From a virus, in IMG/VR virus record IMGVR_UViG_3300028025_003013, positions 1 through 64,000 of that record: DNA of 64,000 nucleotides, one strand, 5' to 3'. The notes beneath the pieces are model-generated. The model worked only from the letters and a program-made list of their open reading frames with translations, searched no databases and was not told the origin of the DNA. A program made the translations under genes and the position numbers. How positions within the stretch are numbered: the first letter of the stretch is position 1; each line of letters opens with the position of its first letter. This document shows positions 35,438 to 38,026 of this stretch, piece by piece.

Positions 35438-35570
35438 ATTGGTTGAGTACAGAGATGCTGGTATGATGACATACACATACTTCTGGACATTGAACAGTAA
35501 ACATGTTGGACCATATTTTAATAGTGAGAGCGAAGCAAAAGATTGGCTGAACGAAAGATTGGCCATTTGA
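35421..35570 (+). CDS. Small hypothetical protein (GTG start)
   Basis: 49 residues from GTG 35421 with AAGGA six bases ahead. TYTYFWTLNSKHVGPYFNSESEAKDWLNERL resembles short phage proteins. It ends immediately before the tmRNA acceptor piece, so the two may share a transcript. Confidence 0.55.
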   Translation: MQVTFKLVEYRDAGMMTYTYFWTLNSKHVGPYFNSESEAKDWLNERLAI

Positions 35571-35635
35571 TATTGCTGTATGAAGCAAAGAGAAAAGTGT
35601 CTTGGACGAGGGTTCGATTCCCTCCACCTCCACCA
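35571..35635 (+). ncRNA. ssrA: Permuted tmRNA, acceptor (3') piece
   Basis: This segment contains the tRNA-like 3' half of tmRNA. It has a TTGCT/AGCAA hairpin (35573-35588), CTTG able to pair with CAAG 35751-35754 (P2), T-arm GAGGG-TTCGATT-CCCTC (35608-35624), acceptor strand CACCTCC (35625-35631), A73 and CCA (to 35635). It pairs with GGGGGTG at 35724-35730 over 7 bp, including G3-U70, the alanine identity pair. It lies upstream of the 5' half, so the gene is circularly permuted. The 5' end of the piece is estimated. Confidence 0.88.
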
Positions 35636-35723
35636 AAAGTATTCTAAACTGGACGCAGGATCTAAGAAGGTTAAAAGTGGGTTGATCACCACAAGTAAGC
35701 TGGAGATCGAGAATGCTTTTGAT
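35636..35723 (+). ncRNA. Intervening segment of the permuted tmRNA precursor
   Basis: 88 nt between the CCA end and the mature 5' end, presumably removed by processing. AAAGTATTC (35636-35644) pairs with GAATGCTTT (35711-35719), nine pairs with one G-U, extending the acceptor helix. This is the expected closing loop of a permuted precursor. Confidence 0.8.
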
Positions 35724-36015
35724 GGGGGTGACTAGGTTTCGACAGGGCAACAAGTAAATGCGTGGACAGCACGACACAGATAGTCGTAAAAAGTAAAACA
35801 ACGTAAACGCAAACGACGAACAGTTCGCATTAGCAGCCTAAACACTGCTTAGGGTTTCGGTAGCTTTCCTCGTAACAGAATAAGCTACCACAAATTTGAG
35901 AGTTGGTAGGTCTCTTTAAAACCTATCGTTAGTTAGTCTTTGCTAATCAACAGCAACCGATACCTTAGTATCTTGTACTGTAATGATGGTGACGAAGCTG
36001 ATGAATTTGTTAGTT
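35724..36015 (+). ncRNA. ssrA: Permuted tmRNA, coding (5') piece with tag ANDEQFALAA
   Basis: Begins GGGGGTGACTAGGTTTCGAC, the conserved tmRNA 5' end. The tag frame GCA...TAA at 35809-35841 encodes ANDEQFALAA (E. coli: ANDENYALAA). Downstream stems GGTAGCTT/AAGCTACC (35859-35889) and GGTAGGT/ACCTATC (35905-35927) fit the pseudoknot domain. No acceptor-type 3' end exists downstream, which confirms the permutation. It would rescue stalled ribosomes and mark products for proteolysis. The 3' end is approximate. Confidence 0.9.
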
Positions 36016-36043
36016 TAACTTTTTAATTTTCTAAGGAAATGAT

Positions 36044-36238
36044 ATGAAAACATTGATCGCTACAATTTTGTCCGCATTCGCTTTGACATCTTTCGCTGCA
36101 GAGCCAGCTAAAGCCACAGCACCTGCACCAGCCAAGGCAACAGCACCAGCTGTAGCTACACCTGCGCCAGCACCTGCTAAGGCAGAGGCTAAGAAAGAAG
36201 AGAAGAAGGTAGAAAAGAAAGCCGAAGCTAAGAAGTAA
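36044..36238 (+). CDS. Secreted Ala/Pro/Lys-rich protein 1
   Basis: 64 residues. Signal peptide ending SFA-AEP (about residue 18), then low-complexity PAPAKATAPA repeats and a KAEAKKEEKKVEKK tail. Periplasmic, intrinsically disordered, strongly basic/acidic mixed charge. Paralogue of the next gene (same leader and AEPAKA start). CTAAGGAAATGAT provides the ribosome site. Function unknown. Confidence 0.75.
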   Translation: MKTLIATILSAFALTSFAAEPAKATAPAPAKATAPAVATPAPAPAKAEAKKEEKKVEKKAEAKK

Positions 36239-36293: not shown

Positions 36294-36509
36294 ATGAAAC
36301 ATTTAATCGCTACACTCTTAATGGCATTTACTGCTAGCACCTTTGCCGCAGAACCAGCCAAAGCCCCACAACAACCTGCTGGTGCCAAAGAGCGCAAGCA
36401 GGTTACCCCAGATTTTAGCAAAAAGAAAGAAAAGGCTCCAGCCAAGAAGCCAACTTCTAAGCCAGTTCCTGCGCCAAAGAAAAAGCCAGCCACTGAGCCA
36501 GCGAAGTAA
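36294..36509 (+). CDS. Secreted Lys/Pro/Ala-rich protein 2
   Basis: 71 residues. Signal peptide (MKHLIATLLMAFTASTFA), then AEPAKAPQQPAGAKERKQ and KKKEKAPAKKPTSKP-type sequence, highly basic. A tandem paralogue of 36044 with identical CTAAGGAAA ribosome site context. Could coat or neutralise envelope charges; no evidence beyond composition. Confidence 0.75.
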   Translation: MKHLIATLLMAFTASTFAAEPAKAPQQPAGAKERKQVTPDFSKKKEKAPAKKPTSKPVPAPKKKPATEPAK

Positions 36510-36915: not shown

Positions 36916-37584
36916 TTGCCTAAAGCAAAATTCCAAATCATCGCAACATTTATAGTAGTCCTACTGACTGCTATAGCAGTAACAATAGATCAGAGATCAC
37001 TACTCCCGATCAAAGCAACATTCAAACAGCTAACACCTACAGCGCAAAAAGAAGTATTGTGTTTGGCTGATAACATCCTGTTCGAAGCAGGACATGAACC
37101 AAAAGATGGTCAAATGGCAGTTGCCGTTGTCACACTCAATCGCCTCAAGTCAGGCAACTTTGCAGATTCAATCTGTGGTGTGGTAAAACAAAAGACTGGC
37201 AACGTCTGTCAGTTCTCATGGTGGTGCGAAGACAAACCGAGAATGACTTCCATTACAAGAAACTTGACTAGTGCTCAACAGTCGGTGTATAATTCTATAT
37301 TAGACATGGCAGTGTACGCATACCTTAACTCTGAAATATTAAGAGACAATACAAAGGGTGCTACCTACTACCATGCTGATTACGTTAATCCTAACTGGAA
37401 ACGTCTAGAGAAAACAGTGCAAATTGGAAGACATATATTTTATAAGAATGGAGAAGTTGATGTCAAATATGATGAAAAAGCTAAACCTAGCACTGGAACA
37501 GGACGATTTAAGCCACTCGTATTTTCTACTAATGGAAGAGATTACAATGGCTACCTGCAAGCAAACTATCGAATGGATTTTTGA
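36916..37584 (+). CDS. Cell-wall hydrolase, SleB-like
   Basis: 222 residues from TTG 36916, six bases after AAAGGAG; ATG 36910 abuts the ribosome site and is less likely. N-terminal TM/signal anchor (about 8-25), then a hydrolase domain with LADNILFEAGHEP--GQMAVAVVTLNR (catalytic Glu) and VCQFSWWCEDK. GATYYHADYVNPNW and IGRHIFYK follow, the SleB/CwlJ signature. Lytic transglycosylase-type attack on peptidoglycan is expected. Its last 125 bases overlap the ClpP gene. Confidence 0.85.
   Translation: MPKAKFQIIATFIVVLLTAIAVTIDQRSLLPIKATFKQLTPTAQKEVLCLADNILFEAGHEPKDGQMAVAVVTLNRLKSGNFADSICGVVKQKTGNVCQFSWWCEDKPRMTSITRNLTSAQQSVYNSILDMAVYAYLNSEILRDNTKGATYYHADYVNPNWKRLEKTVQIGRHIFYKNGEVDVKYDEKAKPSTGTGRFKPLVFSTNGRDYNGYLQANYRMDF
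37264..37293 (+). promoter_or_regulatory. Internal sigma70-like promoter upstream of clpP
   Basis: TTGACT, 18-bp spacer, TATAAT (37288-37293) inside the SleB-like gene, about 165 bp upstream of the ClpP start. Sequence matches the early promoter family except for spacer length. Confidence 0.55.
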
Positions 37585-38026
37585 TTCGAACTTTGCTGAG
37601 GAACGACCAGAAGTTCTAAACTTGATTGTTTGTTCTCCTGGTGGTGATTTGAATGCTGCGTTTGCAGTAATTGATACAATGCGTGGTAGTAAGATTCCAG
37701 TCCATACGATCGGACTCGGACAGATTGCTTCCGCTGGATTGTTAATCTTTATTAGTGGTGTCAAAGGTAATCGTGTTCTTACACCGAACACTTCTATCTT
37801 GTCTCACCAATATACATGGGGTGCTTTTGGTAAAGAACATGAACTGTTTGCTACCGTAAAGGAGTTTGATCTTACAACCAAACGACTAATTGCACATTAC
37901 AAAAAATGTACTGGGATGAACGAAGCCCAGATCCGTGAAGTTCTTCTGCCACCGCATGATGTATGGCTTGATGCGCAGGAGTCTAAGAAACTTGGTCTTT
38001 GCGACTTAGTGAAAGATCTTAAATAG
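37460..38026 (+). CDS. clpP: ClpP-like serine protease
   Basis: 188 residues from ATG 37460 (GGAGAAGTTG upstream). ClpP landmarks: NLIVCSPGGDLNAAFAVIDTM, nucleophile Ser91 in GQIASAGLLIF, His116 in TSILSHQYTWG and Asp167 in HDVWLDA, so the triad is complete. The fold forms a tetradecameric proteolytic chamber that needs a Clp ATPase, here presumably the host's. In T4-like marine phages a ClpP-type gene may serve prohead or protein turnover. The start lies inside the preceding gene. Confidence 0.87.
   Translation: MSNMMKKLNLALEQDDLSHSYFLLMEEITMATCKQTIEWIFDSNFAEERPEVLNLIVCSPGGDLNAAFAVIDTMRGSKIPVHTIGLGQIASAGLLIFISGVKGNRVLTPNTSILSHQYTWGAFGKEHELFATVKEFDLTTKRLIAHYKKCTGMNEAQIREVLLPPHDVWLDAQESKKLGLCDLVKDLK

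Follow-up and report, generated by a model that had tools for sequence, protein, structure and literature searches.

A circularly permuted tmRNA gene of beta type in a T4-like virus record

tmRNA rescues stuck ribosomes and marks the unfinished protein for destruction. The locus described here raises the question of whether a phage carries an intact two-piece form of this gene and what use it might make of it. The DNA analysed (the window) comprises 64,000 nucleotides, positions 1 to 64,000 of the IMG/VR virus record IMGVR_UViG_3300028025_003013, which has 73,486 bases in all and derives from a lake-type, T4-like myovirus.

Investigation of the 64,000-nt window with Rfam models and ARAGORN revealed a permuted tmRNA gene at about 35574-35913 on the plus strand. 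Searching all Rfam families with cmscan gave matches over the full length of two models, RF04321 (tmRNA_permuted) at 35574-35841 (131.7 bits against a cut-off of 47 bits, E 1.5e-25, model positions 1-213 of 213) and RF01850 (beta_tmRNA) at 35534-35913 (125.8 bits against a cut-off of 84 bits, E 6.5e-38, model positions 1-331 of 331). The sole permuted tmRNA call of ARAGORN ('tmRNA*') spans 35543-35932 on the plus strand, with the tag ANDEQFALAA encoded at 35809-35841, and no tmRNA was called in 60 dinucleotide-shuffled copies of the window. The reading of the initial annotation, a phage-borne circularly permuted two-piece tmRNA, is thereby borne out, as covariance models, structure, relatives and tree agree on it and indicate the beta type. 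The parts of the gene are as follows.

35574-35635, plus strand: 3' (acceptor) piece of the tmRNA with a P2 strand, from the RF04321 and RF01850 alignments and the sequence
35608-35624, plus strand: T arm, read directly from the sequence
35625-35631, plus strand: 3' acceptor strand CACCUCC, followed by A73 at 35632 and the encoded CCA at 35633-35635
35636-35723, plus strand: intervening segment of 88 nt, with a closing helix formed by 35636-35645 and 35710-35719
35724-35913, plus strand: 5' piece with the mRNA-like region, its 3' end approximate (end of the RF01850 match)
35724-35730, plus strand: 5' acceptor strand GGGGGUG, pairing with CACCUCC over 7 bp
35809-35841, plus strand: tag frame ANDEQFALAA plus TAA, from ARAGORN

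The order of the pieces is permuted, the 3' acceptor half (35574-35635) lying upstream of the 5' half that begins at 35724. The acceptor stem is tRNA-Ala-like, with CCA encoded and the G3-U70 pair formed by G35726 and U35629, and the 5' piece contains the acceptor strand, the GGUUUCGAC motif, the P2 partner, the tag and a 3' helical domain. A second acceptor half was looked for downstream of the coding piece and none was found. The positions initially given for the T arm and CCA end (35608-35635) and for the start of the 5' half, the 7-bp stem with its G3-U70 pair, the 88-nt separation of the halves, the tag and the lack of an acceptor end after the coding piece all agree with the sequence and, for the tag, with the frame called by ARAGORN. 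The helix proposed to close the 88-nt segment exists but has 10 bp, G-U included, rather than 9, and its fold has a z-score of -4.3 against shuffles; in the fold of the precursor (z-score -4.3) this helix extends the acceptor stem. The range first assigned to the gene, 35571-36015, does contain the tmRNA but reaches too far to the right, as the beta_tmRNA model stops at 35913; the 3' end of the mRNA-like piece is bracketed between that position and the ARAGORN end at 35932.

The remainder of that range, 35913-36015, was considered as a tmRNA 3' domain and ruled out, because the RNA found there is a leader that belongs to the next gene and changes place between relatives.

35929-36017, plus strand: a structured RNA of its own, the 5' leader of the gene at 36044-36238, whose start codon follows after 26 nt
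36044-36238, plus strand: gene of a small secreted Ala/Pro/Lys-rich protein with a signal-peptide-like start, homologues of which lie downstream of the leader in relatives
Copies of the leader in related contigs: L267:2833-2923, L281:4618-4709, L303:4642-4732, L301:4591-4683, L312:4603-4693, L393:6569-6658, L397:6836-6926 and L378:6309-6398

The position of the leader relative to the tmRNA varies, from 430-590 nt beyond it in some relatives to 1.1 kb before it in another, and at all 12 loci examined a gene for a small secreted Ala/Pro/Lys-rich protein has its start codon 20-28 nt after the leader. It folds as a long interrupted hairpin of 20 pairs with conserved internal loops. Among 19 distinct sequences, in an alignment fitted to the model, 95.8% of cells pair, 6 pairs have double changes and the covariation score is reached by none of 500 shuffles, and an independent alignment of 15 sequences gives 4 pairs with double changes and 98.1% pairing. 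No Rfam family matches the leader at E<=1, and it is a candidate for a new cis-regulatory RNA of freshwater T4-like phages. The neighbouring genes at 36044-36238 and 36294-36509 (plus strand) encode small secreted proteins rich in Ala, Pro and Lys (MK..FAAEPAKA...) that look like paralogues and recur downstream of the leader in relatives.

Regarding genome context, T4-like genes are present on both sides of the tmRNA, including those for the gp59 loader, gp32, baseplate wedge and hub proteins and T4 RNase H, and ARAGORN detects 25 tRNA genes on the contig. The local order is PhoH, a GH19 endolysin-like gene, a PD-(D/E)XK nuclease, small ORFs, the tmRNA, the small secreted proteins, a cell-wall hydrolase and a ClpP-like gene, and the same order was found again in diverged viral contigs. 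Viral homologues of the tmRNA are both near-identical and diverged; one viral contig (L235) matches the window at 91% over 3.4 kb and at 99% over the tmRNA region.

Phylogenetic trees were built with FastTree from 254 distinct sequences under three alignment and trimming treatments; the sequences had been collected by searching with acceptor, tag and neighbour genes, which makes the sample a biased one. In all three treatments the window's tmRNA clusters with betaproteobacterial permuted tmRNAs, apart from those of other Pseudomonadota, and its kinship with the beta type is firm. Within this cluster it groups with 138 viral contig sequences, the isolate Synechococcus phage BUCT-ZZ01 and one contig from a metagenome-assembled genome (MAG), and all 74 viral tips with the tag ANDEQFALAA fall inside the same group. 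It consists of viruses alone in two of the three treatments (support 0.85 and 0.96), and in the third 8 betaproteobacterial sequences are nested inside it; the betaproteobacterial sequences are thus the nearest bacterial relatives, and the alignment decides whether they form a sister group or some of them fall within the viral group. The beta affinity suggests a freshwater Burkholderiales-type host; the host of BUCT-ZZ01, whose tmRNA sits in the same clade, is a cyanobacterium.

The betaproteobacterial two-piece tmRNAs described by RF01850 and RF04321 have the same order of pieces, the G3-U70 pair, P2 and a similar place for the tag, and the window's tag is one residue away from the betaproteobacterial ANDERFALAA. 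The window's gene differs from them in being viral, in its 88-nt intervening segment (5-49 nt in the bacteria sampled) and in the tag ANDEQFALAA itself, which is hardly seen in permuted bacterial genes. Permuted bacterial tmRNAs sampled from the relevant order and families mostly have ANDERFALAA or ANDERFAIAA, ANDESYALAA and ANDENFALAA.

The initial annotation had implied that a permuted tmRNA in a phage would be new. This does not hold, since a 2022 survey, isolate phages and IMG/VR contigs already contain such genes. A two-piece tmRNA was reported in the T4-like methylophage Melnitz by a study that found 53 such structures across 18,146 phage genomes (PMC9004378), a 'Betaproteobacter-class' phage tmRNA is given in the paper on phage Marzo (PMC8928761), and tmRNAs and SmpB are mentioned in a paper on huge phages (PMC7162821). 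A first permuted tmRNA in phages is thus ruled out by the literature and by isolate records. RF04321 scores above its cut-off in 10 isolate phages (Bhz51, DLP_6, Rb1, X1, QDWS595, BUCT-ZZ01, Phosso, Melnitz, Mosig and HTVC008M), which are phages of Stenotrophomonas, Xanthomonas, Alcaligenes, Synechococcus, Sinorhizobium, Methylophilales and Pelagibacter. Permuted tmRNA was also detected in at least 140 IMG/VR contigs, and two pattern scans of IMG/VR gave at least 57 and at least 94 loci with a permuted call by ARAGORN.

Several of these phages invite comparison. Melnitz (Methylophilales), Mosig and HTVC008M (Pelagibacter) are likewise T4-like myoviruses of aquatic bacteria with a permuted tmRNA; that of Melnitz is reported to be alphaproteobacterial in kind and to lie under a glutamine riboswitch (PMC9004378), whereas the window's is of beta type. 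The Stenotrophomonas phages of the genus Menderavirus (Mendera, Moby, Marzo and Bhz51) share with the window a beta-class permuted tmRNA, a T4-like genome and many tRNAs, but their tmRNA has the tag VAANDDSYTVRIAA (ARAGORN) and a shorter intervening segment and forms a separate branch in the tree. Unusual longer tags, VAANDDSYTVRIAA, ANDDNFRPALRLAA and VAANDADYSVARYA (ARAGORN), were seen in the permuted tmRNAs of three Stenotrophomonas and Xanthomonas phages (L002, L004 and L005). The hosts of these three phages are bacteria that presumably have a one-piece tmRNA. Among isolates, BUCT-ZZ01 is nearest to the window in the tmRNA tree and encodes the most similar ClpP-like protein, and it differs from the window in its tag, ANDETFSMALAA, and in the distance between the two genes (see below). 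Phage-borne tmRNA genes are also present in mycobacteriophages of the Bxz1 group and in DS6A, the latter having only a tRNA-like domain without a tag, and none of them is described as permuted in PMC4131195.

Regarding the distribution of the tag, a scan for any coding of ANDEQFALAA followed by a stop, in one bacterial or archaeal genome for each of 84,980 species, gave 16 matches, comprising 15 one-piece tmRNAs and a single permuted one; the same scan of viral contigs gave at least 94 permuted calls and 1 other among the matches listed; in viruses, permuted genes with this very tag are common. The one permuted match lies on the MAG contig that joins the window's tree group (L133; GTDB MAG contig CAIMTR010000195.1), which is 3 kb long, has 7 tRNAs and, over 392 nt, shares 93% identity with a 104-kb virus record. 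As a bacterial carrier of the permuted ANDEQFALAA gene this tRNA-array contig is ruled out by that identity, which marks it as a phage contig that ended up in a MAG. Between them, its stretches 72-481 and 1442-1503 comprise a permuted tmRNA and, among tRNA genes, a second, partial copy of the tmRNA 3' half (65 nt, 86%).

Permuted tmRNAs with the same tag were also observed in three virus records of jumbo-phage size (L155, L161 and L204; 320-357 kb), and the position of L155 and L204 within the tree group of the T4-like phages suggests transfer of the gene between phage lineages. On balance we lean slightly towards regarding the ANDEQFALAA beta-type permuted tmRNA as in effect a viral gene, belonging to a large lineage of such genes in T4-like and jumbo phages (records of up to 357 kb), passed among phages, having a characteristic long hairpin-forming intervening segment and almost without a chromosomal counterpart in bacteria (the single case in 84,980 species lies on a phage contig), so that phages would maintain and evolve their own branch of trans-translation RNA.

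The best explanation of the locus as a whole, and one in which we place high confidence, is that of an intact permuted ssrA gene of beta type that would be processed, charged and used in ribosome rescue in the host. Marks of selection were evident in a clade of 141 members with diverse sequences. Acceptor pairs 4 and 5 alternate between G-C, C-G and A-U with compensation, G3-U70 is retained in 114 of 116 well-registered relatives, and the ends of the tag, AND...(A)LAA, are constant, with synonymous changes in codons 7-10. The intervening segment is closed by a helix of 5 bp or more in 126 of the 141 relatives, compared with 7 of 141 shuffled copies, and has a median length of 86 nt in the viral clade versus 5-49 nt in the sampled betaproteobacteria.

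Processing, alanine charging, tagging and a benefit to the phage are what we infer from this anatomy, with bacterial two-piece tmRNAs as the model for cutting, alanine charging and the use of SmpB (PMC11915505). One precursor transcript would comprise the 3' piece, the intervening hairpin and the 5' piece, its acceptor stem lengthened by the intervening helix. By analogy with known permuted tmRNAs, host tRNA-processing enzymes would excise the 88-nt segment, leaving a two-piece tmRNA joined by the acceptor stem and P2, which the host alanyl-tRNA synthetase could charge by virtue of G3-U70. With host SmpB, the charged tmRNA would enter stalled ribosomes and append ANDEQFALAA, directing the tagged proteins to destruction by ClpXP-type proteases, which the host probably supplies. 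SmpB must also come from the host, since smpB was detected neither in the 73-kb record, a fragment in which its absence alone proves little, nor in 53 viral records, 44 of them with a permuted tmRNA above the cut-off (control genomes were positive). The benefit would probably be continued ribosome rescue at a time of massive mRNA turnover, when the phage, equipped with 25 tRNAs, breaks down host mRNA and assumes control of translation.

A ClpP-like gene lies nearby.

37424-38026, plus strand: ClpP-like protease gene (PF00574, E 7e-28), 1.5 kb downstream of the tmRNA, its true start probably inside the listed ORF

The encoded protein aligns to ClpP chains; it is not obviously a T4-type prohead protease, and its closest isolate homologues are in BUCT-ZZ01 (58.5%) and Sinorhizobium phage Phosso. 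The tmRNA and this gene could form one phage module for tagging and degrading proteins, and in this sense Ser, His and Asp are retained at the catalytic positions and a permuted tmRNA lies upstream on the same strand at 54 of 57 informative ClpP loci of this family, mostly 0.9-3 kb away. These loci, however, belong to related phages sharing the order PhoH, GH19, nuclease, tmRNA, hydrolase and ClpP, and gene order shared within one lineage is a simpler account of the adjacency than a functional link. ClpP shows no excess in whole records with a permuted tmRNA (24 of 44) compared with those without (5 of 9), a control that is small, partly picked via the tmRNA or ClpP scans and weak in both directions, and in BUCT-ZZ01 the PhoH-ClpP cluster is a counter-example, lying about 40 kb from the tmRNA. 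The module was accordingly rejected as an explanation and is kept as an unlikely rival.

Use of the RNA as a decoy, sequestering SmpB or ribosomes against host trans-translation instead of rescuing, is very improbable: the tag-less tmRNA-like RNA of phage DS6A does inhibit host tmRNA (PMC11915505; PMC4131195), but the window's gene has a full tag frame ending in LAA and a stop codon under purifying selection, which a decoy would not need. Still less credible is the view that the gene is a fossil or a passenger, captured from a host ssrA and now out of use. The capture of ssrA pieces by phages at integration sites has been discussed (PMC9004378) and the MAG contig described above does hold a second, partial 3' half; the compensatory acceptor changes, the near-invariant G3-U70 pair, the synonymously conserved tag and the closing helix across the 141 relatives nevertheless indicate selection and argue against a fossil gene, and the annotated T4-like neighbours include no integrase. 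That the window is bacterial or chimeric, with a tmRNA from a bacterial chromosome, is suggested by the resemblance of the tag to betaproteobacterial ones such as ANDERFALAA and has next to no likelihood, being already refuted by the syntenic viral contigs, one of them 99% identical over the tmRNA region, and opposed by the flanking T4-like replication and baseplate genes and the near absence of permuted ANDEQFALAA from bacterial genomes.

Thus, the intact permuted ssrA gene adds a clean example of beta type to the known phage tmRNAs. Permuted tmRNA genes are common in viral contigs, and this lineage has a tag that bacteria with permuted tmRNA use rarely or never. Peptides tagged with ANDEQFALAA would differ from the host's own, and the tag could therefore be used as a marker for phage-driven protein tagging in infected freshwater bacteria.
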